DNA of 51,182 bases from Thelephora terrestris. Taxonomy: Eukaryota > Basidiomycota > Agaricomycetes > Thelephorales > Thelephoraceae. Below are positions 16,286 through 51,182 of the stretch, piece by piece. The notes below the pieces were generated by a model. It was not told the origin of the DNA. It saw only the letters and a list, made by a program, of their open reading frames with translations, and made no database searches. Numbering within the stretch: the first letter of the stretch is position 1; every line of letters begins with the position of its first letter. The stretch spans positions 1 through 51,182 of the forward strand of contig WIUZ02000035.1 in assembly GCA_015956445.1 (NCBI GenBank). The letters are read 5' to 3'. The position numbers and the translations under genes are program-made.

Positions 16286-17532
16286 ATGTCCGACTCTAAT
16301 CAAACGCCCTGGTCAAACAACCCAAACGCTCCACAAATCCCATACTCTCTTTACTTCGCGGAGAAGGCAAATTTCGCTGGAGCCCTCCTTGGCGCGATAT
16401 TCTACGGTACGCCGACACAGACGTCCATCTCCCCATTCTCATCGATCCACCATTCTAGGCATTGTGATCGTTATGTTTTTCCAGTGTATGGGCGCATTGT
16501 TCGACCCCGTAAATCGCACGAAGGGGGGCATCAAGTGGCCGCTCGTAGCTCACGCCGTGGTCATGTTCTCGTTCGTGACCGTGTACACCGCGACGAGCCT
16601 CGACCTTCAATCGATTTCCTACATCGATAACCGAGAGTTTCCCGGCGTTGACGGCATATTGCCCCCTGGACCTCTCGGATACCAGCTCTCCATCTATTAC
16701 AAGGCGATAAATCTTGTTCCCAACCTTATGGTTCTCTTAAACAATTGGTTGGCCGATGGCCTTTTGGTAAGTCCAGTATCAGCTCGGGCGTCCTGGTGTC
16801 TAACACAATATCTACCCAGCTCTATCGTTGCTATGTCATCTATGCCAAGAACCACTGGGTCATCGCTTTTCCCTTCCTAATGTACCTCGCCTCTGTGGGT
16901 ACGTACTCCAGCATTCCGCAAGCCGATGGTAACGCTCACGACTAATGCTCCCCCGATCCAGGAATGGGTATCTTGTTCATCTACCAGACTTCGCAACCGA
17001 GTAGCATCTTGAACTCCCTGGGCTCAAGGACCGGCATTCCATACTTCTCAATTTCAATATCGCTCAACATCCTCCTCACGCTCCTGATCGTTATCCAACT
17101 CATCAGGCATAGCAGGAACATTCGAAAAGCTTTGGGTGCCCAAGGAGGTGGGGTGTACAACGCCGTTGTAACCATGCTTATCGAGTCTTCTGCCTTGTAC
17201 GCTGTCAGTTCCGTCCTGTTCATTGGTCCGTGGGGTGCCAATAGTTGGGTTGCGGATATTTTCTTGCCGATCCTCGCCCAGAACCAGGTCCGTGCTTTTC
17301 TTCCTTTTCCTCGGTGTGGCGCAATATTAGGGTACAGCTGGCTGATCACGGCGCCGAATAGGTCATCGCTCCATTCCTCATCACTCTACGAGTCGCAAAC
17401 CAGAGTGCGCTGACGAGCAAAACTATCGTCTCCGGAAACATCGGTTCAATACGTTTCGTATCTCAAGGGGAGTCGACGGGTGGTAACATCGAGACCATTC
17501 CTGATATCGAAGTACATGACGACAAGGCCTAA
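16286..17532 (+). CDS. 7TM-A, seven-transmembrane family protein
   Basis: Five exons (16286-16406, 16459-16766, 16820-16898, 16962-17287, 17362-17532) join in phase to 334 residues. I recognise this as a widespread but uncharacterised Agaricomycete integral membrane family. It starts MSDSNQTPWSNNPNAPQIPY, a hallmark shared with copies C, D and E. Hydrophobic segments are NFAGALLGAIFYGIVIVMFF, WPLVAHAVVMFSFVTVY, LVPNLMVLLNNWLADGLL, WVIAFPFLMYLASVGMGILF, YFSISISLNILLTLLIVIQL, VVTMLIESSALYAVSSVLF and VADIFLPILAQNQVIAPFLI, giving seven. A conserved loop holds DNREFPGVDG. The tail is short, polar and Ser/Asp-rich. Exon 3 is 79 nt, as in every readable copy. A receptor or sensor role is possible from topology only. 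The gene looks intact. Confidence 0.85.
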
Positions 17533-17791
17533 AGAGACTCGACATCTTGCTGCTGTTGAGAAATTTTTGTCTCTCATTCACCGATCGGCATTTTCGCCGC
17601 TTTTGCCTTGCAGATATGCAGTCTTTTCATTCGAGCTGAAGGGTGCGCTCAACAGTTCCCGTAGATTATATGTGTTGTTCGCTGTCCGGCTTTGTGTGAG
17701 CCCGACTTCACTCAGCTTCTGACGTTTCCCCGTTCAGTGTTTCCATGTCAGATCCCTTCCATTCCCTCGCTTTGGTTGCTCTCTTAATCTT

Positions 17792-17823
<32 letters not shown>

Positions 17824-18488
17824 TGTATGTATGTATTGCGTGTAACGTCTGGTATTCTATAGCGTACCTGCGAACCAAGTGTTGCGACCAAACGCCACAA
17901 GATCATTAACACACTCACTCCGGCCCGCATCAAGCGATGATCACTTCGACACCGGCAGTATCCCGAAGAGCGACTCGGAGAAGAGTGGCAAGTGCATCCC
18001 TTTAATCAGACCGCTGTTGTTCACATAGAGGGACTTTGATGCAAGGGCTGTGGGGGAGGTGTGACGGGCAACGGGTGGGCTATCGGGGAGCAGACGAAGA
18101 ACAGGACGGAGAAGCAGAGCGGCTTTGCGATAATTTGGATGGTGTTCGGTGCGATATCTCAATAAACCTGCGGTAGAAAGTGGAGAAGGTGGTCACGATG
18201 CACGCAGGGTTAGGTTAGTTGACGTGACTGGGTGTTCTGGTAATCGAGGCCATAGCCTGGTTGTACCCTTCGCAAACCATACCGATACGGATGAGGCAGC
18301 ACGGGAGGGCTGATGAGTGGCGCCGGGGCGTACTCAGCCTAATGCGATACGAGAAGGTGGTGAGATTTAAATAAGTACATACTTGACATGAGACCGCGAT
18401 GTATATATCATCATCGACTGGAATTTAAATACGGAAGACACACAGTGGATACACGCGCAGAGAATGAAAGGAAATGGCTGTCCGCGTG
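17533..18488. other. Intergenic between 7TM-A and NLR-1
   Basis: The segment has a TATG microsatellite and one small minus-strand frame (18162 to 17941, 73 codons) with no recognised domain. A stretch around 18140-18210 resembles 30917-30985: both read GGTAGAAAGT/GGCAGAAAGT with similar flanks, and on the minus strand both can be read as a related peptide containing FI(E/Q)(I/V)SHR. This may be a small conserved exon or merely repeated DNA. Confidence 0.4.
17794..17836 (+). repeat. (TATG)n microsatellite
   Basis: About 10.75 perfect units of TATG run without interruption, 262 bp downstream of the 7TM-A stop codon. It is non-coding and probably length-variable. Confidence 0.95.
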
Positions 18489-21400
18489 TCACTCAAGAAA
18501 CTCTAGGATGACAACTTCCGGTGGTTCACCATGCAAATACCCAAAGAACCGTCCTCGCCAAAATTCGCTCCAATGAAGCGACCGCCAATGGTGAGGCAGC
18601 CACAGGAGCCGCTTCTGGGTCGAGCTCAGTACCCACCCATCCAGCTGTACTTTATACCCATAAAATGATTCCGAGGGGCGCGTGACTCCCAATGGACACG
18701 CGATTGGCGGTAGGCGTTCGAGCTTGAGGAGGCTGGATCCGCTCTCCACGGGAATTGTCCACCTGGTCACAGGCCCGGAAAGGGGGACGCTCCAGACCTC
18801 AGATCCGTCTGGAGTGAAGTGTGGCTTCGACTTGGGCTCCGTTGGGACACTCGCGAGACACTCCCCGGTCCACGTGTTGTAGATGTTCATTTGGCCGGGA
18901 GATCCTCTGTCCTCTAGCGTGACGGCGACATAGTTGAGATTAGGGGATATTGACCTGGTGGATTTCACCAGGGAAGGAGTCCATGGCCAATGATCGAACG
19001 TCATCTCGTGAAAAAGGTCCCTCTTTGTCGCTCTGGCGTTGGGAGCGGAGTCCCTTGCAGGTATGTCCCAGGCAGCCACACCATCGTAATCGGCGACGAC
19101 TATCATGCTCCCGGTCAACCCCATACAGTAGACACTCATATCCACATCAATGACCAACCGTGGATCGCCAGTCTCCAGGTCGATGATTTCAATCCTGCCT
19201 CCCGCCGGTGGAACGACCGCCGCCAATGTTTCATCTGCGGAAAATTCCAGAAGGAAGTCGTCCCGATCGCCATGTCCATCCGGGATACTGGAGGGGGGTG
19301 TAAAAGGATCGCTCGTGGGCCATAAGTTGACTGAGAAACCGTTGAGCATGATGATTGATTCTCCGTTTGGGGAGAAAAGCGGCCTCGCGGATTCACCAAG
19401 GCCGGTGAGTACGACATTTTGGTGAGGCGTGTAGCCGACAGGAGACTCCTTCCAAAGGTGAAGTTCTCGGTCGGTCGTGCAAGCAAAGAAGCGACCGTCG
19501 GGGGAGAAAGACATTTCCCGGAACGAATCCCTGCCCACGAAGTCTAGGAGAGGCTTTGAATTCCGAGCATCCCAGATCAAGGCATTTCCTTTGAGTGTGA
19601 AGGCGAGTCGGGAGAGAGTGGGAAGGAATAGAAGGTTTTTCGAAGGGGGGATTCGATCGGGAAGAGGCAAAGTCTCGACTTCTGCCAACGTGTTTATCGA
19701 GATGAACCCAACCTCGTATACGCTGATTGATCCTGGCACCATGGTGACAAATCGGATACGCTCGCCGTCAGTCCAAATGGGAGGTATGAGGTGGCCTTTT
19801 GGGGGAGTGTAAGAATATAAGCGTGCCTTCGGGAGGAGATCATAGGTGGCAATGGTGAAAGTGGTGTCGTCATGACTCTTGGATGCGACTGCAATAATCT
19901 TGCCGTCCACTGAATATGTGGACGAGGAGCTACGGGGACTAAACTGATCCACGAGTAGGATGGTACCGACTAGACCACCTGTCTGAAGGTCCCAACTCGT
20001 GAGTGCGCAGTCACTGAATTGCGTTAACAAGCGGCTGTCTGGAGAGAAACTAAGCCGCCAGGTTTCAGATTCGCCACACTCTAGGGTGTTGAGTTTTTTG
20101 AGAGTAACTGCGTCCACGATGCCTATTTCACTGTGCCCAGAGATGGCGATGAACCTGTTGCACGGGGACCAGGCAGCCAGGGTATCACCGTTGTAAGTGT
20201 TGAAGGTTGCAACGATTTGTTCCCACGAGGAGGGCAACCCATGTACGACTCTAGCCAAGGGACTGGCATACCGTTCGTACAGCTCCCGTACGGTCGTCCC
20301 TCGGGGTGATAGGGGGATTGCGGTGTGGTAGATATGGGGAGCTGAAGTGCTGATGACTTCGAAAAATGTGATTACGAAACGAAAGTAGTCTTTGACGAGA
20401 CCGGGGGTTGGAGTTGGCGATGTCTGGGTGTGGCCCGCGTGAGATTTGAAAGAATCGATGCTAATGAAACGGAACATACGTCCAGCCATTGTTCAGCCGC
20501 CGTCAGCGCGTCAACCGCTTCCCTTGCGGTACCGAGAACGCTGAGCACCTCCAACCAAAATGGAAACTTCTCTTCTAGGAATCGGCGAAGAACAGGCACG
20601 ATTTCGGGCGAGTGCACGGGTGTTGTGTGAATGAGGTGCTTATGCCACGACTGGCAGGCATATTGCAAACCTTCGTCGATGTATTGTTCGGTCCTCTCCC
20701 TCAGGTCGGCAACCTCTGAGTTGGTGACCCCATCTGGAAGCTTGCACATATTCTTCTCCAGTCTTCGGTTCATTGTCTCGAGGCAGCCGAGCAGGAATTC
20801 CGCATGGTGAGCTGGGGGAGAGATATGGAACCTTTGATTGATGCACCGGGTTGGATCGACGATGAAGTCCGGAAAAGACTTGTGAAAGGGTCTAACGGGG
20901 TGATCGACGTCCTCCCGGAGAACGAGGAGTGAGTGTAACGATGACAGGAGAGGAAACACATCTTCGGTGTCAATGCTCAGGAGTGTGGCGATGGTTGCTG
21001 GGGAGAGAGGGTTCATAGCCAGGATGACAGCAGCGAGAACAGATCTGACTCTGGGGTCACCCTCTGGGTCGTCGTCGCCGAAGGCCTCCTGGAGAATCGT
21101 GATGTAGAGCGAATCCAGTGTTGTGTTCACCTTGAACTTGATCTTTCCCTCGAATTTGCTATCTGGCGATCGTAGAAGGCGAACCAACTGTTCCTTGGGA
21201 TTGACATTCTTCTGGTCGATGAACCTGACCGTAGCTATGGCGTGGACGAATAGCCCCCCTGTGCGTTCGCAAAGTAGGCCCTGTTGTTCTGCTGTTGGCC
21301 AGCCATCCATTCCACGTCTTCGGCTCCTGATTTCGGAGAATTTGTGTCCAAAAAACAGCCGTATGTCACTGTTGACTCGACTCGACTCTACCTCGTGGAG

Positions 21401-23173
21401 GACAAACACATCCGTCGCTTCGGCCAACAGCGGGAGCCGGAAGCCTTCTCGAATGCGTGGCTCCGGACGACCGGTGACGAAGAACTTGACCTTTGGGATC
21501 TGTGCCACAAATTGGCCAAGGACCGACAAGATTGCCGAAGCGGGTTCCTCGTCTTTACATTCGTCCAGAGCGTCAATCACGATGACGGTCGAAACGGAGG
21601 ATTCGACGAGGGGCTGGACTACCAACTTGTTCATTTGGCCATACAGAGACTCATGGACGATTTCTGGATCTGCCTGAATCAGTGGGACGAAGATCGATCG
21701 GAATTTGGGGTAGTTGCGCGCGAGTTGGACCGCAAGGGTGGGGAAGATGGACTTCAGGTTACTTCGGTCTTCAAAATCTCGCGAGCAGAAGAAGGAGGCG
21801 CCCAGTCGTCCGTCTGCAAAGGTTCTCTCTGAGATCGTTTGTGCGATAGTGCTCTTCCCCGTTCCGGCGAGCCCGTTCAACCAGTAGACAGAGGGCTTGT
21901 AGAAGTCGTACGACCAGAGTTCAATCTCATCCAGGATGGCTCCACGGGTTCCCCTGAGACAGCCATTGCGGTCGCCGTGTCGATACTCGGCCTGTCGTGC
22001 AGAGCGGAAATGATTGAGGACAGCCGCTTCCGCTGAGGAGGGAATGGAGCGTATCAGGGAATGGTCATAGAAATATAGAATATAATCCAACCTGGGTCCT
22101 ACCAAGAATGGTCAGTACGTTGACCAAATGTGACACAAAGGAAAAAACTCGCTATTGATTTGAGTTCTTGGTTGTAAATCATCGTTTGTCGCGCCATCTG
22201 TTGTCATCGTCAAAACCGAGGGAACTGTCAGGTTGCGAACGAACCTGATAGTCGACAACAGCAACTTGTAGGTCTTCGAGAAGTCTGAATGCCTCTTCTT
22301 CGTCTTGGGCGTGATCGGTAAGCTGCTGCCACTCCGGCTTCTTACACAACGAGCATAATTGTCCTTCGATTCCCCTGGAATTGCTAGGAGGGAGTCAGTA
22401 CTGAGCGTAAAAATGGGAACTTGGTATACCGTATCAATTCATCCCGGCGCCTCTGATCTGCCACGTCAGCCGGTGGCAAGCTGAAATGTTCCTCTAACGT
22501 AGCTACCCGGAAGAGGACATTTTTAATCTTGTTTCCCGCCGCGACGCTCCCCTAAAAATTTGTTCGTCAACGGAGAATTATAGGAAAATGAGTATGGGCG
22601 AACTTCACGATTGGCAAAAAGAGGAGGGATGGCCCCTAGGACAACTTTAAGAGGACCAAACTTTTCTGTGGCCTCATTTACGTCCCCGAGGGAAGCACCC
22701 TTACGAGCTCTCTTTGCCGCTGGTACACGGTGAGAGGGAGTGAGCACCATCACATTGTCACGTACCCCTGGAAGCTTCTGCCGCGTCAATCCCCCTCCAT
22801 CCAGTGTCGCTAGCGTCCACAACTGGTGGCCAGAATAACAGGAACCCGGATGAATGTTGGCCTCAATTGCGCACAGGAATCAAGAACACTCGCCATTTCT
22901 GTGGCCGGAGCCACCAATCAGAAGACCAGACATCGGAGGACCCGACGCAGTGGGTTCTTGCCCAACATCCATGCCATTCCGAAAGGGATCCGTGCCGCCT
23001 CTCCCGTCTAGTGCCACAGTAACATCAGGATAACCCATATAGTCCTGACGAGAAAGCCTCTATGGCGCACCTTCGGGTGGTCCAGGATCGAGGCTAAATG
23101 GGTCTCCAGGAAAAGTGGGCTGGTGTGGAGGCTCAGGAGATTTCTTGCGCTTTATTTTCAAGAAATGTTTCAT
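18489..23173 (-). CDS. NLR-1: NACHT NTPase with C-terminal WD40-like repeats (STAND protein)
   Basis: STAND ATPases of this NACHT-WD design are the fungal counterparts of NLR receptors, related to HET-E type incompatibility proteins. The large NACHT exon (20490 to about 22090) has Walker A GLAGTGKST, FFCSRDFEDRSNL, Walker B VIVIDALDEC and the sensor-like VTGRPEPRI. A 66-nt intron (20489-20424) leads to the last exon (20423-18489) with WD-like blades (LAAWSPCNRFIAISGHSEIG, MSFSPDGRFFACTTDRELHL) ending GEPPEVVILEFLE. Upstream exons are visible: a Lys-rich start MKHFLKIKRKKSPEPP at 23173-23071, a second from 23007 (GRGGTDPFRNGMDVG), one ending LGAIPPLFANRE, then GSVAAGNKIKNVL and a segment ending VVDYQ. 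Some junctions between about 22970 and 22800, and just before the NACHT exon, are not resolved. No frame damage is visible in the NACHT or WD exons. Confidence 0.85.
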
Positions 23174-24203: not shown

Positions 24204-27200
24204 CTACTCGAAAAATTCAAGAATGACAACTTCTGGTGGTTCACCATGCAAAAACCCCAAAAATCGTCCTTGCCAAACTCTCTCCGTCTGATCTGGCCGC
24301 CAATAGTGAGGTAGCCACAGAAGTCGCTTCTGGTTGGGGCTCAGTACCCACCCATCGTCCGCAACTTCGTAACCACGAGACGATTCCCAGGGCAGTACTC
24401 CCAATGGATAAACGTCTGACCCCAGGGGTTCCAACTTGATGAGTTGAGACTCGCTCTCCTCGTTGATTATCCACCCGGCCACGGACTTGGAGCTGCCAAC
24501 ACACCAGACGCTGCGTCCGTCTGAAGCGAAGTATGGAACCGACGCCAGGGCTGCTGTGGTACTTGCGAGATGCCCCCCGGTCCACATGTCGTGAATGTTC
24601 AGCTGGTGGGAAAAATTCGCGGTGTCTTTTATGATGGCGATATAGTCGAGATTAGGGGATATTGATGTGTTGGTGAAGGTGGAGGGCTTCTTCGGTTCCA
24701 ATCTCACCCAAGACACAGCACTTTGTTTTTTCGACCTTATCTTCGGAGAAGGCCGACTGAATGAAGTGTGGGGTAGATTGGATCGACAGATCTTTGTATG
24801 AAAGTCCTGTCTATGGCAGGCATTCAGTCGGCTGTGTAGGTTGCGTCACTGTCAGCTACCCTACATGGTCCAATGTCAAGAAGGTGCCGAGGCAGGAGCG
24901 CCCCACCTGATTGAGTCTGACCCCCCACACTGCACCCATCTCCTGTGGTCAAACGCATCAACGCGCTGACAGATAGGCGCTGCGTGGAATCCACTAGGAT
25001 ACATCCAAAAAGGGTAGTACATAAAGATCTCGAGGACGGTTAGGGCAGCGGGTAAGCCCTCTGATGAGCCCCTTCGCAAGGGCGAAACCCAAAGTCCGAA
25101 CGCCAGTGGGACATGAGACGGCGCTGGAGTACGAACGTTGTCGCAGTGGACGCTATCGGTAAGGTTCCCTGGCTGTTGACACAGAGCCCCTCGCAGGTAT
25201 GTCCAAGCAACTACCTTCTTCACATCCGGCGACAGCAACCATGCTCCCAGTAATCCTCAGAAACTAATCTCCATACCCACATCTCAACTAGTCGTGGATC
25301 ACCGGATCGAGGTCAGAATTACGACTTCCTTTTCCTCCGGCTGAACGATTGCCGCCAACGTTTTATCTGAGGAAAATGCCGGAAGGAAGTCGTACCGATC
25401 TTGAACAGGTCGATCTGTGATGGTGGAGGGGGTAAGTATGGAATCTCTGTTGCCCATAAAATAACTGATGGATCGCGAGCCGCGACGATTGATTCTCCGT
25501 TCGGGGAGAAAAGCAGGCCTGTGGGTTTACGCGTTCCCCCGAATGCAAGATTCTGATGAAGTGTGTAGCCAACTGGAGTCTCCTTCCAGACGAAAAGTTC
25601 TAGACGGGTTGCGCACGCAAAGAAGCGGCCATCGGAGGAGAAAGACAATCGAGAGAATTCGTCCTTGCCCGTAAAATCTAGAAGAAGCTTCGAATCCCGG
25701 ACGTCCCAGATCAAAACCTTCTTTGGGAGAGTGAAGGCGAGTCGGGAAAGAGTGGGAAGGAATAGATGGTTTTTTGAAAAGCGGATTTCGTCTGGGAGAC
25801 GTAAAGACTCGACCTTTGCTAACGTTTTCATCGAGCTGAACCCAATCTCCCATATGCTGATAGATCCCGGCTCCACAGTGGCGAATTGGATGTTTTCGTC
25901 ATGAGTCCAAATTGGAGGTATGATGTGGCCTACTGGATGTGTGTAAGAATATACGAGTGTCCAGGAGAGAAGATCGTAGGTGGCAATGGCGACAGTGGTG
26001 TCGCTAAGATTCCTACACGCGATTGCAACTATCCCTCCATCCATAGAATACGTGGAAGAGAATCCCCGGCAAGAAGAACCATCCCTCCGGCTGGTACCAG
26101 CCGGACCACCCGTGTGAAGGTCCCAACCTGTGAGTCCCCAATCACTGAATTGTGTTAACAAGCGGCAGTCCGGGGAGAAACTAAGCCACTTGTGTCGAGA
26201 TTTATCTTCCTGGGGGGACTGGAAAGTGTTGAGTTGCTTGAAAGTCGCCGCGTCCACGATGTCTATTTTCGTAGATCCGAACCCCGCGATGGCGATGAAC
26301 CTATTACACGGGGACCACGCAGCCACGTTGCGAAAATCTTGACAAGGGAAGGTCGCAAGAATTGGTTCCCACGAAAGTGATAGCCCATGCACGATCCTCG
26401 CCGTGGGACAGGCATATCGTTCGTACAGCTTGCGTATGATTGACTTTTGGGGTGATAATGGAAGTGCGGTGTGGTAAATATGGAGAGCGGACGTGCTGAT
26501 AGCTTCGAAGAATGTGACTACGAAACGGAGGTAGTCTCTGGCGAGGCTGGCGGCAAGGACCGGCGACGCCCAGATCTAGTTCGAGTAAGATTTTGAGAGA
26601 TGAATGGGAAATGAAACACAGCATACCTCCAGCAATGTTTCAGTCACTTTCAATGCGTCAACCGCTTCCCTTGCGGCACCAAGAACGCTGAGTGCTTCCA
26701 ACCAAAACAAAAACTTCTCTTCGAGGAACTGGCGGAGAGCAGGTATGATGTCGGGTGACTGTGTCGGTATCGTGGGGACGAGGTGCTTGTGCCACGACTG
26801 GCAGGCGTATTGCAAAGCTTGGTCAATGTGTTTTTCGGTTCTCTCCCTCAGGTCAACGACTTCCGAATTGGCGACCCCATGTGGGAGCTTGCAAATATTC
26901 TGCTCTAGTGTTTGGTTCATAATCTTGAGGCAGCCGGCAAGAAGTTCCGTATGATGATCTGGAGGGTAAACGCGAAACCTTGGATCGATGCACCGTGCGG
27001 GATCGAGGACGAAGTCTGAAAAGGACTCGTGGAAGGGTCGGACAGGGTGATTAACGTCCTCCCGTAGAACGAGGAGTGGATGCAATGATGATAGGATGCG
27101 GAATACGTGTTCGGTATCGAGGCTTAGGAGTGTAGCAATTGTGGTTGGGGAGAGGGGGTTTGTAGCCAGGATTGCCGCACCGAGAACAGCTTGAACCATG

Positions 27201-33352: not shown

Positions 33353-34484
33353 ACTGGAAGGATGATAGGAATTCTGCATGAGAAACCAAATATGCATATA
33401 GCATCGAGTATAGCACACACCTTTACGGGTACATCCGAAGAAGGTCATTGAGGCCTCGGTAGCTTCAAAATTGAAGATGATGCCCTTCATCGTACCCTAG
33501 TGCTCGTGAGGGAACGCATTGCCAAACAGAAGCTTGTAGTTGCAGAGCGCAAAGGCGCGCACACGCTGTTCTCCCTTCGACTGATCGACCCCCGCCGAAC
33601 AGTGCTCCATCGGAGACCCCCCGCTGGAGGAAACGGGATGAGACGCGACATTCGATCCATTTCCCACTTCTGCATCCACGACAAGGGGTCCCTTGGCGTC
33701 GAGCTCCTGCATACCAGTTGCTCACCGACACTCAACTTTGTTTCCGTTCCTCTTGGACGACTAGCCAGCTGACGGCTTTTTGATAAGCCCCACGTGAAAC
33801 TGAGCCGCGGGTTTCCAGCGTAGCCTCTCTTAGCCTCTCTTTCAGCTCCATCGTTTCCTCGTCACCTACGTCAAGAATCGCTGTTATGACCTTCCCTGGG
33901 CGCGCCCGCGTCAGGAGGTCCGCTGCCGTTGCCCTCAATCTCACCTACTCTTCTATCTCTTTTCGCTCAACGTCCCCCTCGCGACTGTGATGGCCTACGG
34001 CTCGTCCTGCGCGAGGGAACATTCGGAACGCCAGACTGCTCAAGCAGAATGGTCAACCTGAAGGCAGGCTTTGATATCCTTGAAACTTGCGACCTACACG
34101 CCGCCACCAATAATCTCCATTTCTTGGACCGTGTGGTTCCAGGCGTGCCAGCGCAGATACCCTTTCTAATCAATCCTTTGCGCAGACCTTCATCCCCACC
34201 TGTACCCACCACCGGGTCCGATGACCGCATATAACTGGACTCTGATCCGGTTTTGACTCGCTTGTGGATATTCGCCTCCTTCGCCCATGTCACGCTTTTC
34301 CTTTGCGGATAACTCTTCAGAGGGTGAGCCCTAACGCCGTTGGATGTGCACAGAGATCGGGGTATCACCGAAAACATGTTGTGGAAGCCCAGGCGGGCGG
34401 TTTGGCCTAGCGCCCATGTGCCACGAAGCTGCAAATTTAAAGCACCACTCTCGACGTACTACAGCCTTCAGGCTCCTTCTTCGA
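33353..34484. other. Intergenic; unassigned frames only
   Basis: No gene is recognised. Two frames have protein-like composition. One is minus 33944-33732, containing GKVITAILDVGDEETMELKE. The other is plus about 33990-34230, containing GTFGTPDCSSRMVNLKAGF. Neither has a domain I recognise or convincing splice partners. They could be remnants of an unannotated gene. Confidence 0.35.
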
Positions 34485-35221: not shown

Positions 35222-36510
35222 ATGTTTGATCCCGTTAGAGAGTCCTGGTCAGACCAGTCACGGATCCCACACTCGATGTACTTTGAGGAAAAGACAAACT
35301 TCGCGGGGATTCTCATCGGCGGGATATTCTACGGTATGCGGACCCATGTATTCGTTCATCCGTACTCACCGCTCGATCTATCGCCCAAGGGATCGTCATC
35401 GTTCTGTTTTTCAAATGCATGGGCTTATTTCTCACTGGATCATTAAGTCTGCGGACCAAGTGGACGCTCGTGGCACACACCTCCGCCATCTTCTCGCTTG
35501 TGACGGTATACACGGCAATAAGCCTCAACATCCTGTCCGTCTCCCATGTCGATAACCGAGAATTCCCCGGTGCAGATGGTGCAGCACCCCCCGGGCCCCT
35601 CGGACACCAGTTTTACACCGACTTCGAGGCTGAAAACGTTGTGCGCACCCTCGCGTACGTGTTGAGCAGCTTGTTAGCCGATGGCCTTTTGGTAAGACTT
35701 TCATTGGAGTCAATCGCCCAAGTGTCTAACGGGGACCACTGCTCTCAAAGCTACATCGTTTCTGGGTCATTCATTCTATGAACCTCTGGATCGTCACTTT
35801 GCCATTTCTCGCATACCTCGCCTCGTTGAGTACGCGTCCGAGCCTTCCGCGACCTGACAGCGGTGCTCCTGGCTAACATCGATAATACAGCGTTTGGTAT
35901 TGTGCTGATCTACCAGACCTCACAACCGGACAAGAACCTTGGGAACACAGTCGCTGGCCTTGACCTTGGTTATCTGTTTTACCTAATTTCACCTTCGTTC
36001 AACATTCTCCTTACGCTCACGATCGTGCTGCGATGCATCGAACACAAAAGACAACTGCGGAAGGTTCTAGGGAATTCGTATAAGAATGGAGTGTATGATG
36101 ACATCATCGTCAGAATTATCGAGCCTTGTGCCCTGTACACGGTCAGCTTTCTCCTATATGCTGCACCCTGGGGTTCTGGGAGGATCGTTGCGGACATCTT
36201 CTTCCCAGCGTTCGTCCAGGTGCAGGTTCGTACCTCCTCGCCGTTTACATGCGCGATACAATATGACCATTGTGATGAACAGGTAATCGCTCCGCTCCTC
36301 GTCATTCTCCGAGTCGCCCAACGGCCATCACCGACCAGCGAGGAGACCGACTTCGAATCGGCTGTTTTCTTCAGCCAGGGGGATTCGGTAGGCCCGAATG
36401 AGATCCTTGCTGGTGTGACTCCCGCGGGACCGACGGACGCGAATGAAGGAGCTTCTGGCGAGCCTGGGTTTGGCGTTGAGGCTACTACTAGCGAAGTCAC
36501 CCCATTGTGA
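35222..36510 (+). CDS. 7TM-B, seven-transmembrane family protein
   Basis: Exons 35222-35333, 35390-35691, 35751-35829, 35891-36225 and 36283-36510 join in phase to 351 residues. Exon positions and phases match 7TM-A. The N-terminus (MFDPVRESWSDQSRIPHSMY) is shorter and lacks the NPNAPQIPY block; only 7TM-F shares this form, so B and F are a subgroup. The loop motif is kept as DNREFPGADG. The usual WLADGLL is SLLADGLL, and the usual YRCYVIY after it is HRFWVIH. The segment IIEPCALYTVSFLLY replaces LIESSALYAVS. The cytosolic-type tail is longer, about 60 residues, acidic and Thr/Pro-rich. It looks intact. Its function is unknown. Confidence 0.82.
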
Positions 36511-38145: not shown

Positions 38146-39489
38146 ATGTCTGACTCTCTGGCAAAGCCCTGGTCCGATAATCCTTATGCTCCGCCGATCT
38201 CATACTCGCTGTACGTCGCGGAAAAAAACTATCTTGCCGGAGCTTTCATCGGCGCGATATTCTATGGTACGACTACCCATGTTTCTGCATAATATCCTTA
38301 CATTGTGTGTTGATCTGTCATTCTAGGGATAGTCGTTGTCCTGTTCTTCCGATGTATGGGCGCTTTGCTTCATCCCACCCATTGTGCAAGGGAGGGCGTC
38401 AGGTGGGCTCTCGTGGCCTACACTGCAACCATGTTCACGTTTGTGACGGTAAATATCACGACGATCCTGGACATCAAATCTATCTCTTACGTCGACAACC
38501 GAGGATTCCCAAGCACTGACGCATTAACCTCTGGGCCTTATGGATACTATGAACTTATATACTCCAAAGCAATTGCTGTCGTTCCTAATCTTATGTTCCT
38601 CTTGAACAACTGGCTAGCAGATGGTGTTTTGGCGAGTTTTTTGTTAGACTCAGCCACCTAGATAACTGATAAGGGCCACCCCTCCAGCTCTATCGTTGTT
38701 GTGTTATTTACGCCACCAACTACTGGGCCATCACCTTTCCATGCCTCATGTACCTCGCCTCTCTGGGTACGTGACCAAGTCGCGTTCTCCCCGAGCCCGC
38801 CGAGCTGCTCCCGGCTAACGTCTACTACAGCGATGGGTATAATATTAATCTACTATCAGGCCTCGGAATCGACCACTAGAGGCTGGAGCTCCGTGGCTAC
38901 AAGCTTCAATTATCCATATTTTGCGATTTCCCTTGGGCTCAACATCCTCCTCACCTCCATGATTGTTATGCGACTCGTGCTGCGCAGCAGATACATTCGA
39001 AATGCCATGGGGGCTCCAGCCATAACTAGCGGGTTATACAGGGCCATCCTCACCTTGCTCATCGAATCTTCTGCCCTTTACGCCGTTAGCTTTCTCCTCT
39101 TTATCGTACCTTGGGCTGCAGGTAGTTCCGTCTCGGGTATCTTTTCCCCAATCCTCGCAGATGTTCAGGTTCGTATTATTTGTCTTCCTGACTCATCACA
39201 ATTGGGGACGCCGTTGGCTGATGATGGTAACAAATAGGTCATCGCTCCGTTCTTCATAATCTTGCGAATCGCTGACAGAAGCGCGGTAACAAGTGACATC
39301 ACGGTCTCTGGGAGCTCCGCTTCAAATCAATCCAGGAGCCAAGGGGAGTCTGCGAGTAGTAACGAGATCCCTCCTGACGAGGATGCCTCGGGCTGCGTGG
39401 ATGCGCTTGGCAAGTCGCCTAGAAAGCTCAGTGTAGAGGTTGAGCCCGTCGTCGACGTCCATCAAGACCCATTTTCAAACGGTCCTTGA
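38146..39489 (+). CDS. 7TM-C, seven-transmembrane family protein
   Basis: Exons 38146-38266, 38327-38631, 38688-38766, 38831-39168 and 39238-39489 join in phase to 364 residues. The N-terminus MSDSLAKPWSDNPYAPPISY carries the family hallmark. The loop reads DNRGFPSTDA in place of DNREFPG, and the amphipathic third segment ends NNWLADGVL. LIESSALYAVSFLLF is kept. The tail (about 80 residues, Ser/Asp/Glu-rich) is the longest in the cluster. The second intron begins with GC (GCGAGT at 38632) where other readable copies have GT, so it is either a GC-AG intron or a donor mutation. The gene is tail-to-tail with 7TM-D, 431 bp away. Confidence 0.82.
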
Positions 39490-39920: not shown

Positions 39921-41255
39921 TCACAAAGTGATTTCTTCGATAGTATTCTCAAGCCTGATACCATGTTCTTCCTGAGACCCTGCGTTTGTCTCCGTGTGGC
40001 TTCGGACCTCGGAATGCGCCTCGTCACCACTCGTCGACTCCGCTTGGGTCTTGAAATGAATCGAGCCTATATTCCCTGAGACGATCGCTTCGCTCGTCAA
40101 TGCTCTCCTGTTGGCCACCCGTAGGGTGATGAGGAACGGAGCGATGACCTGCGGGTTACCCTAATCAGAATCAAAACAGCACCAACGTCCCAAGGTTGAA
40201 GCGAGTCCAAAAAGCAGCACGAACCTGGAAATCACCGACGACGGCTGTGAAGATATTCGTAGCGGGGCTATCGGCAGCCCACGGCCCAATGTACAATAGA
40301 AAAGCGACGGCATAAGGGGCGGAAGACTCGATGAGCATCGTGACGACGGCCGTATACAATCCGTTGGTGAATCCGGCGGAGCCACCCATAGCGTTTCGGA
40401 CGTTCCTGCTGTGCAGGACGAGGCGTGTGGCGATCATTACCGTAAGGACGACGTTGAGCGCAACGGCAAGCGAGTAGTATGAAGTCCCGAAGTTGATTTC
40501 CGCGACGGCGGCGGCGCTATCGGTCAGCGGTTGTGAAACTCGGTAGAGGAACGCAATACCCATCGCTGTGCCAATGTCAAAAATCAGTCCTGTCGCGAGT
40601 CGTCGGTTCCTCATGGACTTGAGCACGTACCGACGGTGGCGAGGTACATCAGGAACGGGAAGGCGATGGCCCAGTAGTTCATGGCATAAATGATATAACA
40701 ACGGTATAGCTAAAGCGGCGGCAAAACGATCAGCACCTAGGCGACCGAGCTTGAAACGGGACACTTACCAGAAGGCCATCGGCTAGCCATTGGTTCAAGG
40801 GGAACATAACCTTGGGGAAATTCTCGATCGTATCGTAGTAGGTAAAGTACTGGTATCCGAGAGGCCCGGGAGGTAATGGGCCAGCGCCAGGGAATTCACG
40901 AGCATCGACGTAGGAAACGGATTGGGTCCTGAGGTGTATCGAAGCGGGTAGCGTGATGAACGAGAACATGGCAACGGTGTGGGCGATGAGACACCACTTT
41001 ACGCGCCTCTTCATGCGGTTATCTGGATTCAGCAACGCGCCCATGCATTGGAAGAATAGAACGATGACGATTCCTGAAATAACAGATTGAGCGTGGACGC
41101 GGACGTGAAGAAATGGGCACACAGATCAACGTACCGTAGAAGATTGCGCCAATAAGGACTCCGGCGAAATCCGACTTCTCCCCGAGGTACAAATCGTACG
41201 GGATCTGTGGAGCATTCGGATTGTCGGACCAGGGCTTTTCAGAGGAGTTGGACAT
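39921..41255 (-). CDS. 7TM-D, seven-transmembrane family protein (only minus-strand member)
   Basis: Exons in transcript order are 41255-41135, 41073-40769, 40709-40631, 40565-40225 and 40148-39921, which join in phase to 357 residues. The start is MSNSSEKPWSDNPNAPQIPY. Exon 2 gives IVIVLFFQCMGALLNPDNRM, and the usual loop motif DNREFPG is DAREFPG. Exon 3 is the same 79-nt size (LYRCYIIYAMNYWAIAFPFL). Exon 4 has MLIESSAPYAVAFLLYIGPW. The tail is polar, about 65 residues. It looks intact. As the only inverted member, it shows the cluster did not arise by simple head-to-tail duplication alone. Confidence 0.85.
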
Positions 41256-43079: not shown

Positions 43080-43410
43080 GGTTCTTCTCGCCAACGTCAT
43101 CTGCAATGCAATGGGTCGGGTTCCGCGGTCATCCGCAACCGGACAAGGACAACCGGAACTCTCCGTTGTATACAACTTCGGCATTCCCTACCTCCGTTGG
43201 AACATGGGGTGTCCACCGTTGAGGCATCGTACCGATAAGAATTTAATCTCACTGCTTGCAGAGATTCAGGTTCGCCCTGCTTCCCACTGGCGCCCCACGA
43301 TCGTAAGAAATGGGTGGCTAATCATAATCACGAATAGTCCAGTGGTTCGTTCTTCATCGTTCTCCGTCAACCAGAGCACATCGAAAAGCGGCACTATCGC
43401 CTGTTCATAG
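43080..43410 (+). pseudogene. Relic of a 7TM-family gene
   Basis: Pieces of the family survive in order on the plus strand. GCCAACGTCAT near 43091 matches the end of intron 3 in 7TM-E (GCTAACGTCATCGAT). Next come FGIPYL, equivalent to the GIPYFS segment at the start of exon 4, and then LLAEIQ followed by a GTTCGC donor, as at the end of exon 4 in the other copies. The fifth and sixth membrane segments between them are deleted. A remnant of intron 4 ends AATAG before a decayed exon 5. No working protein is possible. Confidence 0.6.
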
Positions 43411-44510: not shown

Positions 44511-45215
44511 GTGGTCAGACACCCGTCGCCACAAATGAAGATTGCTTCATCAGCTTGTCTATCATGATAGTATATCTATCGTTGACTTCTGTGAGTGTAT
44601 ATTTTTTGGTTTCCTGCCGCGTTACGTGCTGATCGAAAGTTGAAAAGCTGACGGCTTACCAGTCATTTCTCGAGGAAATGAGATTTTATCAGATTGACAT
44701 GTGGTCAGACATCTGTCGCCACATATGAATATTGCATTGTAAGGTTGTCCGCCATGATGGTACATTTACCCTTGGCTTCTGTGAGCATATGTTTTTTTTG
44801 GCTTGCCGTCGTGTTGTGCGGATTGAAAAGCTGATGGCTTACCAGACATTTCTCGAGGAAATGAGATTCTATTAAATTGACATGTGGCAGACATCTGTCG
44901 CCACATAGTAGCCTATGAATATTGCATCATAGGGTTGTCCGCCATGATGGTACATCTACCCTTGGCTTTTGTGAGCATATGTTTTGTGGCATGCTGTCGC
45001 GTTGTGCGGATTGAAAAGGTGACGGCTTACCTGAAGTTTCTCAAAGAAATGAGATCATACTGAATTGACACGTTATCAGACATCCGTAATTTGGCAATCA
45101 TCGTAAAGATGTATGTCACGGCAGTATAGTCATAGTCGGCGGTGTGAGTGTATATTTTTTGGTCTTCTGTCTCGTTATGTCTCGGTTGAAATGCTGATGG
45201 GCCAATGCTTCGTTT
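44511..45215 (+). repeat. Tandem array of about 187-bp units (3.7 copies)
   Basis: Units start at about 44511 (GTGGTCAGAC), 44701 (the same decamer), 44884 (GTGGCAGAC) and 45072 (GTTATCAGAC), so the periods are 190, 183 and 188 bp. Each unit carries, in order, CATC(C/T)GTCGCCACA, ATGAATATTGCAT, CATGATGGTACAT, a T-rich TATGTTTTTT stretch, GATTGAAAAG, GACGGCTTACC and AGAAATGAGAT-like sequence, diverging from copy to copy. The fourth unit is incomplete and the most diverged. The array is AT-richer than its surroundings and has no shared long frame. Confidence 0.85.
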
Positions 45216-46770
45216 CCAGTAGCAAATCAAATACCCCAAGTCCCCCTTCCTTCCTTCCTCCTCCTTCCCCCCTCTTCCCCCTTCACTTGGTATGCATGAA
45301 CAAGGAAACTGCACCTGCGATCCTCTCGTTTAGGATAGTCGCACCTCACCATCGAACCCGGTCCAAGGTTCGATCGTAACCTGTAACCTGTATGGAGCGC
45401 GAGCGCGGCCCTGTAAATCATACCGATGAATGAACCCGTATCCACATCTTGAGCATTGCCCGAATCGCATCATCAACAGAACGATACTGCCGCTTGTTTC
45501 CTTCAGATCATCCTTCGTCGACGAGTTGAATCCCTGCTGGTTGTGGGCGTCGAAATATTCCAACCCCCACGTGCATCGCGGACGCCCTGTTGATATTCTG
45601 TGTGACACGGTTTTATCGAGAGACGGCACCGGTCCATCTCACAAGTTCTAGATCTGCCTTTCAATGGAAAATAAAACCCTCCGGCTGTTCGCCTTGCTCA
45701 TCATACGCATCGTCTCGTCGTCTGTTCCTGGTAGGGCCCCTGAAGGTTAGTCAGGGAAGGCCGAATTCAAGCCAGTCCCGGCGTTTTCTCAAGCGCAAGA
45801 TCTCACACACAGTTGTTGGGACTGAACACTACCCGCGGCACGTCCGCTAATTGACCACCTAACAGACACTAGATGTCATACGTAAAAACGAGAGAGGTGA
45901 TTCCCGGTCTGACAGGAATATTCGATAGCATGTTCGTATCACCGCGTATCGAGGTTCCACGAGATGCCCCGTGATGGACGTCTATCAGTTCACCGATACT
46001 CCGGACGCAGAACTCGGGATGAAGCGCAGGGCTGCCCGTTCGGTCCGAGAGAGACGGCAAATTTGAGTGCGAACTTGTATAGCATGTGTCCCTCGTCCAA
46101 GCAACTGGGCATGGTACTGTGGCGATCCCGTTGCATAGAGCCGCGGTAGTCAATCCTGAAGTCCCCCAGATCTACAGCTCGAGTGAATTAGACCTGGTAG
46201 TCGGTGAAACAATAACAGATGCGAGCTCTCTCATCTCTTCAACGCCATTGTGTGGTTGGATTGCCAGAGCAAGCGGTTGATCGCTCCGGGGTGCTGGATT
46301 AGAGCCGAAGTCGGTTATACGGCCGTCGAATGAGTGAGGCGCGCTCAGGCAGGGACTCGCGATGTCGATGAAAGTTTGAAAATGTGTGGGTGAACACGGG
46401 GCCCCTGGCTCGTCAAATGAGCCCTGAGATTACGCAGGCCTATAGAATGTGGGATGCTGATTTCAACTCCGACCAGTTGAGTTTTGATGGCGTCGGGCTT
46501 AACTCGTTCCCACCATCATACCGCTCGCGATAAACCGGGCGGTAAATGCGAAGACTATCTCCCCAATACGCCAGAGGTCAAGCAATCAAGAAGTGGGCGG
46601 CAAACTAGGGCCGCATCTGTGGGGAACCGGACCATACTAACCCAAAAATCTCAGGCCTCGAGCGATGCCAAACGCCGCGTTACTTCAGCACGCGTGAGGG
46701 GCTCCCGGGCCCTGACCAGTGACTGAAGAAAACGAGACCATGAAGGGTTGACTTTTAATGGACCTGAGCG
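45216..46770. other. Intergenic between the tandem array and 7TM-E
   Basis: It begins with a C/T-rich tract (about 45238-45290) and otherwise holds short frames without domains. Around 46150-46260 a plus-strand frame (VPQIYSSSELDLV) faintly recalls the exon 1 hallmark of the 7TM family (APQIPYSLY), but it is too weak to call a relic. Confidence 0.4.
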
Positions 46771-46778
46771 TTTATAAC
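46771..46778 (+). promoter_or_regulatory. TATA-like box of 7TM-E
   Basis: TTTATAAC stands 124 bp before the 7TM-E start codon. The same octamer is found before 7TM-C. Confidence 0.5.
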
Positions 46779-46894
46779 TCGCTGGTCCCTTCCCATCGAG
46801 CCCCGAGGGGTTCTCTCTTCATCCCAGGCCCTGGATACTCTGACCTTCTTTCGCCGCCCACTCAAGACCCCGCTAGATTATACGGATTTGAGCC

Positions 46895-48211
46895 ATGTCT
46901 GACTCTTCAGAAATGCCCTGGTCGGACAATCCCAACGCTCCGAAGATCCCATACGAAGTGTACTTTTCAGAGAAGACAAGTTTCGCAGGAACCCTAATCG
47001 GTGCGATACTATATGGTACGCCAAGATACATGCGCAACTATCCGTGCTCACCTTGTCCGTTCGATCTATCGCTCTAGGGATTGTCATCATTCTGTTCTTC
47101 CAGTGTCTAGACAGGTTGCTCAATCCAACTCATCGCAGAAGGGAGGGGATCAAGTGGGGGCTCGTGGCTCACACCGTGGCCATGTTCTCATTTGCGACGG
47201 TGTACACCGCGATGACCCTCGACATTCTTTCTGATTGCTACATCAACAACCGAGAATTCCCTGGTGTTGATGGGGTGTTACCCCCTGGACCATCCGGATA
47301 CCGGTTCCTCATCTACTCTAGAGCCATTAGTGTTGTTCCAGACTTCATGTTCCTCCTGAACAATTGGCTAGCCGACGGTCTCTTGGTAAGTCTCGTGCTA
47401 ATCTCGGTCGCTCGGTCGTTCAACTCGGACCGCTCCTCCAGTTCTATCGTTGCTACGTTATCTACGCCAAGAACCATTGGGTCATCGCCTTCCCGTGCCT
47501 AGTATACCTCACCTCTTTTGGTACGCTCTCCGCAAAGTAACAGCGACACTCTTGGCTAACGTCATCGATACAGGGACGGGCGTCGTGCTCATCTACCAGT
47601 CCACGCACCTGAACAATATCTGGTACTCCTTCAAACCCATCCTTGGCATTCCCTACTTCTCGGTCTCCATTTCGCTCAACGTCCTCCTCACCCTCATCAT
47701 CGTTACGAGACTCATTCTACATAGCAGGAGCGTTGGAAGTGCCCTGGGCCCTCTTGTCAGACCCAGCAGGTTGTACAACGCCATCGTCACCATCCTTATC
47801 GAGTCTTCTGCCCTTTACGCTCTCTTTTCGCTGTTATTCATTGCCACATGGGCTACCAAGACTCGCGCTATAGGCCTCTTTCTCCCAATCCTTGCCGAGA
47901 CACAGGTTCGTTCCATTTTACTCTAACGACGTGCCACGGTCTTTCCGGACGGCCTCTGATCGTAGTGGCTAACAGGTCATCGCCCCGTTCCTCATCATTT
48001 TACGAATTGCCAACCAAAGCGCATTGACGAGCAATACTCTCGTCTCTCACTCGATTCACTTAGCGGTCAAAGGAACTCGACGGGCGGTGGTGGGACGCTT
48101 CCTGGTGTGTATCCGATGAGTTCAACGGATTCGGATATTAAGGTTCCTGGGGAACCCGGTGTTAGGGTTGAGACTACTGTCGATTTGCATCGTGACAGTC
48201 GAACGGTTTGA
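46895..48211 (+). CDS. 7TM-E, seven-transmembrane family protein with frameshifted tail
   Basis: Exons are 46895-47015, 47078-47385, 47442-47520, 47574-47905 and 47976 onward. As read, exon 5 ends at the stop at 48117-48119, giving 327 residues. All seven membrane segments are intact, with MSDSSEMPWSDNPNAPKIPY at the start, NNREFPGVDG in the loop, FYRCYVIYAKNHWVIAFPCL in exon 3 and LIESSALYALFSLLF in exon 4. After SALTSNTLVS the frame becomes basic and unlike the other tails. The frame shifted by one base continues to 48211 with a family-like tail (LDSLSGQRNSTGGGGTLPG, then acidic residues). A single-base change within the CT-rich stretch 48036-48050 would explain this. The membrane core should be unaffected. 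Confidence 0.82.
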
Positions 48212-50159
48212 GGAGTCGCTTGGAAACTTTGTGCCTTGCCACGATCTGGACCCTTTTCCGCCTCTCTCCCCCTGATCGGCGCTCTCATCTGCTTTTGCCG
48301 TTCAAAATCGGTAGCCGTCTGGGACATTTCACCACCGATGGGTTTTTTACTCGTATTTCTAGCTACATCGCAACCTTTTGACTCGGGTTTTTTTCTCACG
48401 TTTGAATGTATGTTGCTTGTAACATGTACTTTCTCCAGTCATGAGATTTAAATTTTATTGCGCCAAAATCAAACGTTCGGTGGACAACTTTGCACTGCAA
48501 ATATCATGAACACCGCTAGCTAGCTCTTGAGAAAAGAGGGTTTCCGAATTTTGTCCCAATTTGCTGCACCTGTGTCTTACCCAAAAGCAGCCCAACATCG
48601 AGCTGAATGCGCGCACGAACCCCAAGTCCAAGGCCAGGGTCTGCCACAGATGATCATGAACCGGTTCGGCAACCGCCGCATGAGGTGATCGTTGGCTCGA
48701 TTTTTCTCCCCCTTCTTTTCTCCAACCACCACAGGCTGAACGCCGCGATGCTCGTCCCGCACAGACCAAGGCTCGTCTTCGGCGACCTTTCGAGTCTATC
48801 TCACGAGCGGGAAGGTCTGAGTATGCTCAAGTCCCTTTGACGGCTCCACAGCTGTTGCAGGTGTTAAATCTCACCTCAGTCGACGTACCAGAAAAACGAG
48901 CGAGCCCCGAGTGGGCCGTGTAGTTCCTTGTTCCGAAGATGCCAGGGAAATGCCTTGGTGGAGGATATAGTGTGCTCTTGAAAACACGTCACGGACTTTG
49001 GGTGCCTCCCCCTCACCTCGGCTTTTTAGGTCGATCTCTTCCACCCTCTCTATCACAGGGAACGCGCCATTCTGGGTTGTTATTGATGGCGCACCATTAC
49101 GTGGATGACTGTACAATGTGCAGAAGCTGAAACGTCGTGTTCTTTTTCTGTTAACTCGGCTATTTGCGCCTTTCGCAATCTCCGAGGGAACACTACATTC
49201 CTGTACGAGGAGAGTTTTGGTGTGTTGTGGATCCTGACCGCCTGTGAGAATGGCGCCCTTTAGTGCAATTCGCGGCACGCGGGATTGCTTTGGCATCGTT
49301 TGCCTCATGTGCTCGCTGCCAAGGGCCGAGTGTATGTTGGCGAGCTCCTGTGTAACTCAATTCAGACTAGTCTCGGTCTGTGGTGCCCCCTCTTCGTATT
49401 TTTTCCTCCTATTTCAACTCTTCGCGAGTTGGTTGCACGTTGGTGTCTCATATATACATATAGTTTGGTCATTTGTACTTCGCGTATGACGCTGTAGTGA
49501 ATCTTAGGCTATACTCGTGCTCACACTCGGACCCTGAACAATAATCACATTCTGGACGATTTCATTCGCAATCGCGGGTGCTGATACAAGGGGCGTAGCT
49601 TGGGTAGGGTTGATACTCTGGCATAAAGGGCCCGGGGGAAGAGGTCATGTCCAAAAGTGCGTCGCGGAAACTTCCCCAGACAGGGCGTCGCTCAACCCCG
49701 TGCATAGGATTGTAGTTCTGTACTTTCAGCCGAACTACGTCCTGATATCATGGCTCGTTCGTCCAATGTGTTGCTCAGATCTGGAGTGACTCACTTTCAA
49801 TGCCCAGGCAGTCACTGAGTTCCGCAGCGTTTTCGTCGAGCTGGAAGGAGAAAATATACCACGACAAGGGACTTGACGAGGCCGTGATCCCTTTTTTTCC
49901 GCAACTGTGAGAAGACAATTCGATGGTCACTTCCCAGCTACACCGTACTCATCCAGCGCCGGCGTCCGGCGTTCCTTCCGCCCTTGAGTCGGTTGATTGA
50001 CAATCTGAACCTCTAGAAAACACTCGATGCGATCGACTCCGGACTTCCACGGATCCAACTTGGCAACAGTCTCCAGCCTCAATTCAGAGGCGAGGAGGAC
50101 GCGATTTAAAGGGGGAACGATACTTAGGGGGACGTATCCCCGCTCTTCCTTCTTTAACT
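48212..50159. other. Intergenic, no supportable gene
   Basis: The longest frame is minus 49308-48871 (145 codons). It has no domain and no paralogue in the window, and is probably chance. A decayed inverted copy of the small insertion element lies at 50073-50140. The rest shows no organised structure. Confidence 0.4.
50073..50140 (-). repeat. Inverted copy of the short insertion element
   Basis: Read on the minus strand, this matches the first two thirds of 50602-50691. Shared words on this strand's complement are CAGAGGCGAGGAGGACGCG at 50083-50101, GGGAACGATACTTAGGG against GGGGACGATACCTAGGG, and CCAGCCTC at its edge. It shows the element inserts in both orientations. Confidence 0.6.
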
Positions 50160-51008
50160 CTTGTGCTAACCCATGACCGAGGTCGAGACCGAAAACGCTG
50201 GCAAACTGTATCATTACCAGAGTGAGTGTCGCTCGATCCGAACGACTCAGAAGATGTGGGCATTAATGTACGCTGAATGAATACCACGTTTACTGTTAGC
50301 TGATAGTCCCGCAGCAGGGCCTCAACATATCTGAATTGGGCGCCAGGGTTGAGCTTGGCGTGTTCTTTTGTCTCTGGAGACTTCTCGCCCTCTGGAAACC
50401 TAACACAGACACCTGTCATCACCCTGGAATTCGACGCTCGATGCAATCGTCCCCTGACTCTAGCCTCTTTATCATCGTCCAGTTGGTTTTCCCTCAAGAC
50501 CCTATCCCGCAGATAAGATGGCACTTACGTTAAGAGGTCTTCACTGAAGCATGGATCACGTCCGAACCATCGGGACGTCATATCGTTTCTGTCCCTAGTG
50601 ATTACAGAGGCGGCGTTCCCTAGGTATCGTCCCCTTCCAAATCGCGTCCTCCTCGCCTCTGAATTCGAGGCTGGATTCCAGCCTATACTGATATACGTCT
50701 CGTAGCCCGAGCAATTCAAGGGATCAGATACGCCTTCCGGAATGCTCCAAACCCACACACAAGTCAAGCAATTAGAAGGCGCACAATGAACTGGATTCGC
50801 ACTTTATGAAGAAGAGCGGGCGGTTTAGGAACACGCCACTAGTCTATCCCCCGCGTAGTGCTTCTCCCTTTAATTGGACTCCAAGTACGCACCTGCAATC
50901 TGCCGAACCTCTTCGCCTCCTCCTTAGAGTTCGATATCTTCTCTCTTTATCTTGGTCTCCCTCTTCAATTCGCCCTCCGCTGGACCACTTCCTACGCACA
51001 TCCGAGTC
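50160..51008 (+). repeat. Segmental repeat, copy 3, leading into 7TM-F
   Basis: This copy is collinear with 34485-35221. It carries GATAGTCCCGCAGCAGGGCC at 50302, CAATCGTCCCCTGACTCTAG at 50443, CCAAACCCACACACAAGTCA near 50748 and the same leader before the start codon. Copy 1 lies about 15.7-15.8 kb upstream in the same orientation. It differs mainly by the roughly 90-bp insertion described below. Confidence 0.8.
50602..50691 (+). mobile_element. About 90-bp non-coding insertion element with empty site in the paralogous repeat
   Basis: Aligning this copy of the segmental repeat with the one at 34.9 kb shows an extra block here. At 34.9 kb the sequence runs CTGTTCCTACTCATACACGTC without it. 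The block is flanked by TAGTGA (50596-50601) and TACTGA (50686-50691), and the empty site has TACTCA, which fits an imperfect 6-bp target duplication. The element contains the palindrome AGGCTGGATTCCAGCCT. Related copies are at 50073-50140 (inverted) and 2753-2786 (partial). It has no coding capacity, so it would be a non-autonomous element. Confidence 0.65.
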
Positions 51009-51182
51009 ATGCTTTATCCCGTTAGACAAACCCGCTCAGACAAGTCACCGATCCTACCCGCGATGTACTTTGAGGAGAAGGCAAACTTTGCTGGGATCCT
51101 CATCGGCGGGATCTTTTATGGTATGCGGACTCGGTGTTCGTTTGTCCGCACTCATGCTCGATCTATCGTTCAAGGGATCGTC
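51009..51182 (+). CDS. 7TM-F, seven-transmembrane family protein, cut by the window end
   Basis: Exon 1 is 51009-51120, followed by an intron 51121-51174 (GTATGCGG donor, TTCAAG acceptor) and the first bases of exon 2. The translated exon is MLYPVRQTRSDKSPILPAMY followed by FEEKANFAGILIGGIFYG, nearly the same as 7TM-B, with identical exon length (112 nt) and phase. The rest lies outside the window, so integrity cannot be judged. Together with its upstream repeat it is clearly the product of the same duplication as 7TM-B. Confidence 0.75.
   Translation, partial: MLYPVRQTRSDKSPILPAMYFEEKANFAGILIGGIFYGMRTRCSFVRTHARSIVQGIV

Follow-up and report, generated by a model that had tools for sequence, protein, structure and literature searches.

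The window analysed here is a whole contig of Thelephora terrestris (WIUZ02000035.1, our contig C29; 51,182 bases), and it carries an array of genes for a family of predicted seven-transmembrane (7TM) proteins. Genes were modelled from splice sites and similarity, which gave 5 complete genes of 5 exons each (g1 to g5) and a sixth (g6) that the contig end cuts off after 174 bases, confirming the five-exon family of a preliminary description that had been made from the letters of this DNA alone (Table 1). The window runs parallel to C12:2,704,733-2,755,668 over its full length and, because C29 repeats C12, it holds one array and not an additional one. The full g6 gene is present at C12:2704908-2703755 and follows the same gene pattern. 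Exon 2 of g3 has an alternative GC donor 6 bases downstream of 38625, and the short tail of g5 (327 amino acids in the window protein, 358 in that of C12) is due to a one-base homopolymer difference in exon 5. Exon 3 was found to be always 79 nucleotides long, as had been claimed, not only in the 5 complete window genes but in 50/50 models built across the genome from 56 exon-2 loci (6 of the 56 gave no model); the 50 include the 5 window genes and their 5 C12 copies. In this search exon 3 was free to vary between 70 and 88 nucleotides in steps of three, and the intron phases were preset to (1,0,1,0), so that the agreement in phase is not separate evidence. The protein motifs that had been said to recur in the array do so, but with changes, each being exact in only some of the genes: PWSDNPNAPQIPY only in g4 (it is absent from g2 and g6), DNREFPG in g1 and g2, WLADGLL in g1, g4, and g5, and LIESSALYAV in g1 and g3.

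Table 1. Members and relics of the gene family in the window, and the block in which the window and its C12 counterpart mainly differ
Feature	Position	Strand	Structure	Protein (amino acids)
g1	16286..17532	+	exons 16286-16406, 16459-16766, 16820-16898, 16962-17287, 17362-17532	334
g2	35222..36510	+	exons 35222-35333, 35390-35691, 35751-35829, 35891-36225, 36283-36510	351
g3	38146..39489	+	exons 38146-38266, 38327-38625, 38688-38766, 38831-39168, 39238-39489	362
g4	39921..41255	-	exons 41255-41135, 41073-40769, 40709-40631, 40565-40225, 40148-39921	357
g5	46895..48119	+	exons 46895-47015, 47078-47385, 47442-47520, 47574-47905, 47976-48119	327
g6	51009..51182	+	exon 1, intron 1, and first bases of exon 2; truncated by contig end	
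Decayed family copy (firm)	33634..34146	+	collinear pieces similar to portions of exons 2 to 4	
Weak relic	43134..43402	+	exons 4-5	
Main C29/C12 difference block	14400..19400		contains g1 and the end of the adjacent NACHT-WD40 gene	

The dead copy that had been proposed is present: the array contains one firm relic, whose collinear score was reached by none of 60 shuffles, and one weak relic, whose score was reached by 2 of 60. Counting against the relic at 43.13-43.40 kb, a reversed control gave a single match with an E value of 0.0005, compared with 0.002 for the real sequence. Neither relic was found by tblastn with exon peptides at E ≤ 0.05, and both were seen only by DNA comparison. As the preliminary description had it, the family is a multigene one, with members in both orientations and with decayed copies.

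Three protein searches of the genome returned at least 101 family loci, or at least 95 when the copies on C29 and C42 are subtracted. These numbers are lower bounds, since the searches score best candidates only; the locus list was typed by hand from the three search listings. The small contig C42 bears a family copy (C42:15181-16027) with a score identical to that of the copy at C12:2,763 kb, which it apparently repeats. Contig C12 carries at least 32 loci and C23 at least 24, and the C12 array extends beyond the stretch that corresponds to the window on both sides, with loci at 2,697-2,703 and 2,763 kb. With 6 gene starts in 35 kb, the array is much denser than the family mean of about 1 locus per 430 kb (at least 95 loci in 40.6 Mb). 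A tree was computed by a quick method from 47 of the 50 models, with 21 of its 44 inner branches below 80% support and C23 represented by 8 of its 24 loci. The array members do not form a single group in this tree. Genes g2, g6, and a copy at C12:2702k make up a young trio, g1 and g5 group with other copies from C12, C10, and C3 (support 89), and g3 and g4 are placed elsewhere, while 8 C23 copies and 1 C3 copy group together (support 100 for the 9). Judged by this tree, a single recent burst does not account for the array, in which youth is limited to the trio. The birth-and-death pattern that had been suggested holds for this trio and for the two relics, but the remaining members are old paralogs.

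To describe the topology of the encoded proteins, we used a simple hydropathy count and the charges of the loops. The family-average hydropathy has 7 peaks above 1.2, and an eighth peak, at 0.27, is far below them; counted in single sequences (n = 46), 33 have 7 peaks, 8 have 6, 3 have 8, and 2 have 5. Basic residues exceed acidic ones in the predicted intracellular loops (ICLs) 1 and 3 (2.73 versus 0.51 and 2.96 versus 0.51 per sequence, respectively), and acidic residues are in excess in the N-terminus (2.00 basic versus 3.31 acidic) and in the first predicted extracellular loop (ECL1, 1.84 versus 3.44). This charge bias, which is of the positive-inside type, fits an N-terminus outside and a C-terminus inside, and with the 7 hydrophobic peaks seen family-wide it sustains the 7TM topology first assigned to the array. 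Conservation was calculated on 45 of the 46 rows, the C12 copy of g1 being omitted on account of a one-base shift in its exon 1. The least conserved regions are ECL2 and ECL3 (mean column identity 0.25 and 0.32), with 0.42 for the tail, 0.45-0.57 for the ICLs, and 0.50-0.65 for the helices. Across 30 members, 14 positions do not vary at all (W67, F77, R99, G111, D140, P161, and L208 are examples), and 52 further positions (counted by hand) reach 90%, including R146, E244, and Q278. The tails of 45 of the 50 models (C29 omitted) have a median length of 77 residues (middle half 75-80, range 30-128), and 34 of them carry a DLHxD-like or an IEEVPL-like motif at the end, as scored with patterns that were written after inspecting the tails. 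The preliminary description had contrasted a conserved membrane core with variable polar tails. This is true of a few window members but not of the family, in which the tails are mostly regular and share the two end motifs, and ECL2 and ECL3 are what varies most.

The same regions were compared by the ratio of nonsynonymous to synonymous substitution rates (dN/dS, omega) in 9 pairs picked by hand from the tree, with a bootstrap that resampled codons and not pairs. Omega was 0.60 (0.45-0.81) in ECL2 and ECL3, 0.37 (0.28-0.49) in the ICLs, and 0.30 (0.25-0.35) in the helices; for ECL1-3 together it was 0.53, for the tail 0.45, and for the N-terminus 0.27. The outer loops thus evolve faster than the inner ones, with ECL2 and ECL3 at or below the ICLs in 5 of 1000 codon bootstraps and ECL1-3 in 31 of 1000. 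In the comparison of loops and tails that had been called for, ECL2 and ECL3 have a higher ratio than the tail, but not by a clear margin. Over 28 pairs of C23 copies, which are not independent of each other, omega of ECL2 was approximately 1.0 (43 of the 46 rows were used in this analysis). Omega was 0.21-0.39 in 3 intact young pairs and 0.63-0.68 in the g2/g6/C12:2702k trio, two members of which (g6 and the 2702k copy) are short-tailed; a tail omega of 3.60 between g2 and C12:2702k comes from 27 poorly aligned codons. The elevated ratios of the trio, the shortening of 2 of its 3 tails, and the two relics (one of them weak) are what would be expected of a low-function family that expands and decays mostly by drift. 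We regard this explanation as improbable, because it does not agree with the low ratios of the 3 intact pairs, with the fact that 50 of 56 loci yield an open five-exon model, or with the sharing of tail ends (34/45).

Known relatives were searched for with 30 members of the family. The best match in Pfam had an E value of 0.011 (Cortexin, 5 members) and the best in NCBIfam one of 0.019 (PlsY acyltransferase, 1 member), both at chance level, as was a Pfam match of 1 of the 30 members to the CbtA cobalt transporter (E 0.094). The Pfam scan was run at E ≤ 10, with filters that drop most matches above about 0.1, and 12 families were matched by any of the 30 members. PlsY and CbtA being the best of their kind, no transporter or enzyme family was matched beyond chance, which is consistent with the preliminary description. 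The conserved polar residues of the family could nevertheless belong to a seven-helix transporter or channel, with D140 in transmembrane helix (TM) 3 and E244 in TM6 forming a transport path and the loops varying for lack of constraint. D140 is found in 46/46 and E244 in 98% of the sequences, both within predicted helices, and the CbtA match, chance-level as it is, would point in this direction. However, no other transporter profile of Pfam or NCBIfam was matched, and so large a repertoire with such a loop pattern would demand an additional reason, so that we consider a transporter unlikely. The seven helices and the conserved polar residues would also suit an enzyme of the membrane, such as a ceramidase/PAQR-type lipid hydrolase, and the chance-level PlsY match (E 0.019, 1 of 30 members) could be quoted in its favor. 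Proteins of the ceramidase/PAQR group have metal-binding histidines. These are missing from the family, since none of the positions with at least 93% conservation is a histidine, and no ceramidase/PAQR profile was matched by its members; an enzyme of this kind is therefore very improbable. A microbial rhodopsin was rejected, because the retinal lysine in helix 7 was not found (over 45 rows, TM7 averages no more than 0.18 lysine and arginine residues together per sequence). None of 41 pattern matches in viral contigs and none of 243 in prokaryote contigs was related to the family.

The family was also compared with 7TM proteins already described in fungi. Pth11-like receptors, class XIV of the fungal G protein-coupled receptors (GPCRs), resemble it in being a large, expanded, and mostly orphan repertoire (PMC13308352, PMC12842992). 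They differ from it in that the accessible part of PMC12842992 reports them only from Pezizomycotina and in that their Pfam profiles were not matched by the 30 members. The DUF6534 proteins are likewise a large 7TM family of mushroom-type fungi, and those of Agaricomycotina are proposed as new GPCRs by machine-learning prediction in the accessible text of PMC12842992. Their profile (PF20152) was not matched by any of the 30 members, and it had 3 matches in the genome, all near the cut-off (28.3-29.2 bits versus 28.2) and none at a family locus. SNB1, a DUF6533 protein of Agaricomycetes, is given in the portion of PMC10949477 available to us as a predicted 7TM protein with the N-terminus outside, the C-terminus inside, and an unknown mechanism, with a function in fruiting-body patterning. 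By analogy, the family could consist of accessory or chaperone-like membrane proteins, such as partners of receptors or of cell-wall enzymes. The DUF6533 profile (PF20151) provides no link, as it had no match in the 30 members and none of its 43 genome matches lies at a family locus by comparison of coordinates, and we give this idea hardly any weight. Pheromone receptors of the STE3 type (class II) are 7TM proteins too, and 3 STE3 genes lie at 2 sites inside the cluster of family loci on C23, but the STE3 profile PF02076 was not matched by the 30 members. Our search of the literature returned no paper recognisable as describing the family. The window samples a real and large 7TM family that has no name in the libraries searched; large orphan 7TM sets as such are already known in fungi, according to the accessible parts of PMC12842992 and PMC13308352.

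On balance, we lean towards the family being a large receptor-like repertoire of seven-helix surface proteins, with a G-alpha subunit as the most likely partner. The N-terminus and ECL1-3 would face outward, and the basic ICL1 and ICL3 and the tail of approximately 77 residues would be cytosolic. The divergent ECL2 and ECL3 would let every paralog detect a small or peptide cue of its own, and each would signal to a common intracellular partner through the end of TM3 (WLADGLLLYRC), TM5-ICL3, TM7 (QVIAPFLI), and the C-terminal motif. In favor of this interpretation are the size of the family, the 7 hydropathy peaks, the charge bias, the faster change of ECL2 and ECL3 relative to the ICLs, and the shared tail ends. 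We also counted 17 separate places in the genome that match G-alpha above its cut-off and 1 below it, so that partners exist and coupling to a G protein is possible. Several results weigh against this interpretation. Among the 12 Pfam families matched by the 30 members there is no 7tm, STE2, STE3, Pth11, or similar profile, a search of the PDB with the family sequence profile gave a single chance-level match (E 0.41), and a profile comparison of the family with one STE3 piece of the genome found no relation. Structure prediction from 4 sequences (g1, g3, g4, and g5) reached a mean predicted local distance difference test score of 40.8 and a predicted template modelling score of 0.26, at which the fold is unreadable. 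The limits of helices and loops were set by hand on g1, 13 of the 46 sequences do not have 7 hydropathy peaks, and the tail, taken over its full length, has slightly more acidic residues (5.29) than basic ones (4.69). The N-terminus and ECL1, both placed outward, are well conserved (mean column identity 0.54 and 0.49), and the lead in rate of ECL2 and ECL3 over the tail is not clear (67 of 1000 bootstraps contradict it). Moreover, the regional omegas are below 1, apart from the value of about 1.0 for ECL2 and that of 3.60 for one tail, so that they do not demonstrate positive selection and would also fit relaxed constraint. The receptor-like interpretation offered in the preliminary description is partly supported, by the 7 peaks and the charge bias but not by a match to any GPCR profile. 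If the family is a receptor repertoire, at least 95 loci would serve cell-surface sensing under no name in the profile libraries searched, about 8 times the number of STE3 genes (12 places in the genome, own count). It would then be a basidiomycete counterpart of the large orphan 7TM sets described in Ascomycetes (Pth11-like), and the discovery of ligands would be directly testable, the shared tail ends pointing to the common partner and the variable outer loops to the ligands.

The cluster on C23 consists of at least 24 family loci in 321 kb (1,280-1,601 kb, C23:1280000-1601000), and the STE3 genes inside it are located at 1,361.8-1,362.9, 1,366.7-1,367.7, and 1,492.5-1,493.6 kb. Between the first two there is a reading frame of 55 residues (L057:3245-3412, minus strand) that starts with MDSF and ends with CVIS. 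Pheromone precursors of basidiomycetes begin and end similarly, with an MDSF-type start and a CVIS-type end. The background of small frames with such an end in the other loci fetched was 0.14 per 8 kb (5 in 292 kb). The presence of this frame between STE3 genes suggests a probable pheromone/receptor mating locus at this site. From the pheromone-like frame to the closest family locus it is approximately 17 kb, a proximity to family loci that is shared by 4.3% of the genome. The position of the cluster around the STE3 locus may be chance, and the link was spotted post hoc, which makes it a weak lead only. A further-reaching possibility links the family, as a large recognition repertoire, to mating or to self/non-self recognition, in which case the C23 branch would have grown around the pheromone/STE3 locus and the differing block of the window would pair g1 with a NACHT-WD40 gene; we think it most improbable. 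A link to homeodomain genes was discarded, the two matches being on C15 and C56, near neither cluster.

Aligned with C12 and scored in bins of 1000 bases, the window shows zero mismatches between 26 and 47 kb. The differences are mainly found in the block around g1 (Table 1), where most 200-base bins have 1-12% mismatches, those at 15.0, 15.4, 17.6, and 18.2 kb peak at approximately 15-23%, and large gaps occur at 15.0-16.2 and 17.6-18.4 kb. The g1 proteins of C29 and C12 were counted to differ at 5 positions outside exon 1; in exon 1 the C12 copy has an apparent one-base difference that shifts the frame. Lesser differences are seen at 25.0-25.2 kb (11 mismatches) and at 48-50 kb (a few), together with scattered gaps. 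In the first kilobase of the window the alignment has 20 mismatches with 61 gaps, against a BLAST count of 10 mismatches over all of positions 1-5,625. Outside the main block the gaps (42 in the stretches examined, of which 40 were listed) are mostly single-base length changes in homopolymer runs, many of them near contig ends, and look like read error. The copies on C29 and C12 may be alleles or a product of the assembly. Two adjacent genes for NLR-like proteins with a NACHT domain followed by beta-propeller repeats are encoded on the minus strand at 18489-22111 and 25319-28294 of the window and are approximately 71-75% alike in DNA. An F-box-like gene is located between them and g2, at 31757-33352, and a short tandem repeat with a period of approximately 190 bases and copies that are approximately 71-80% alike occupies positions 44511-45087.

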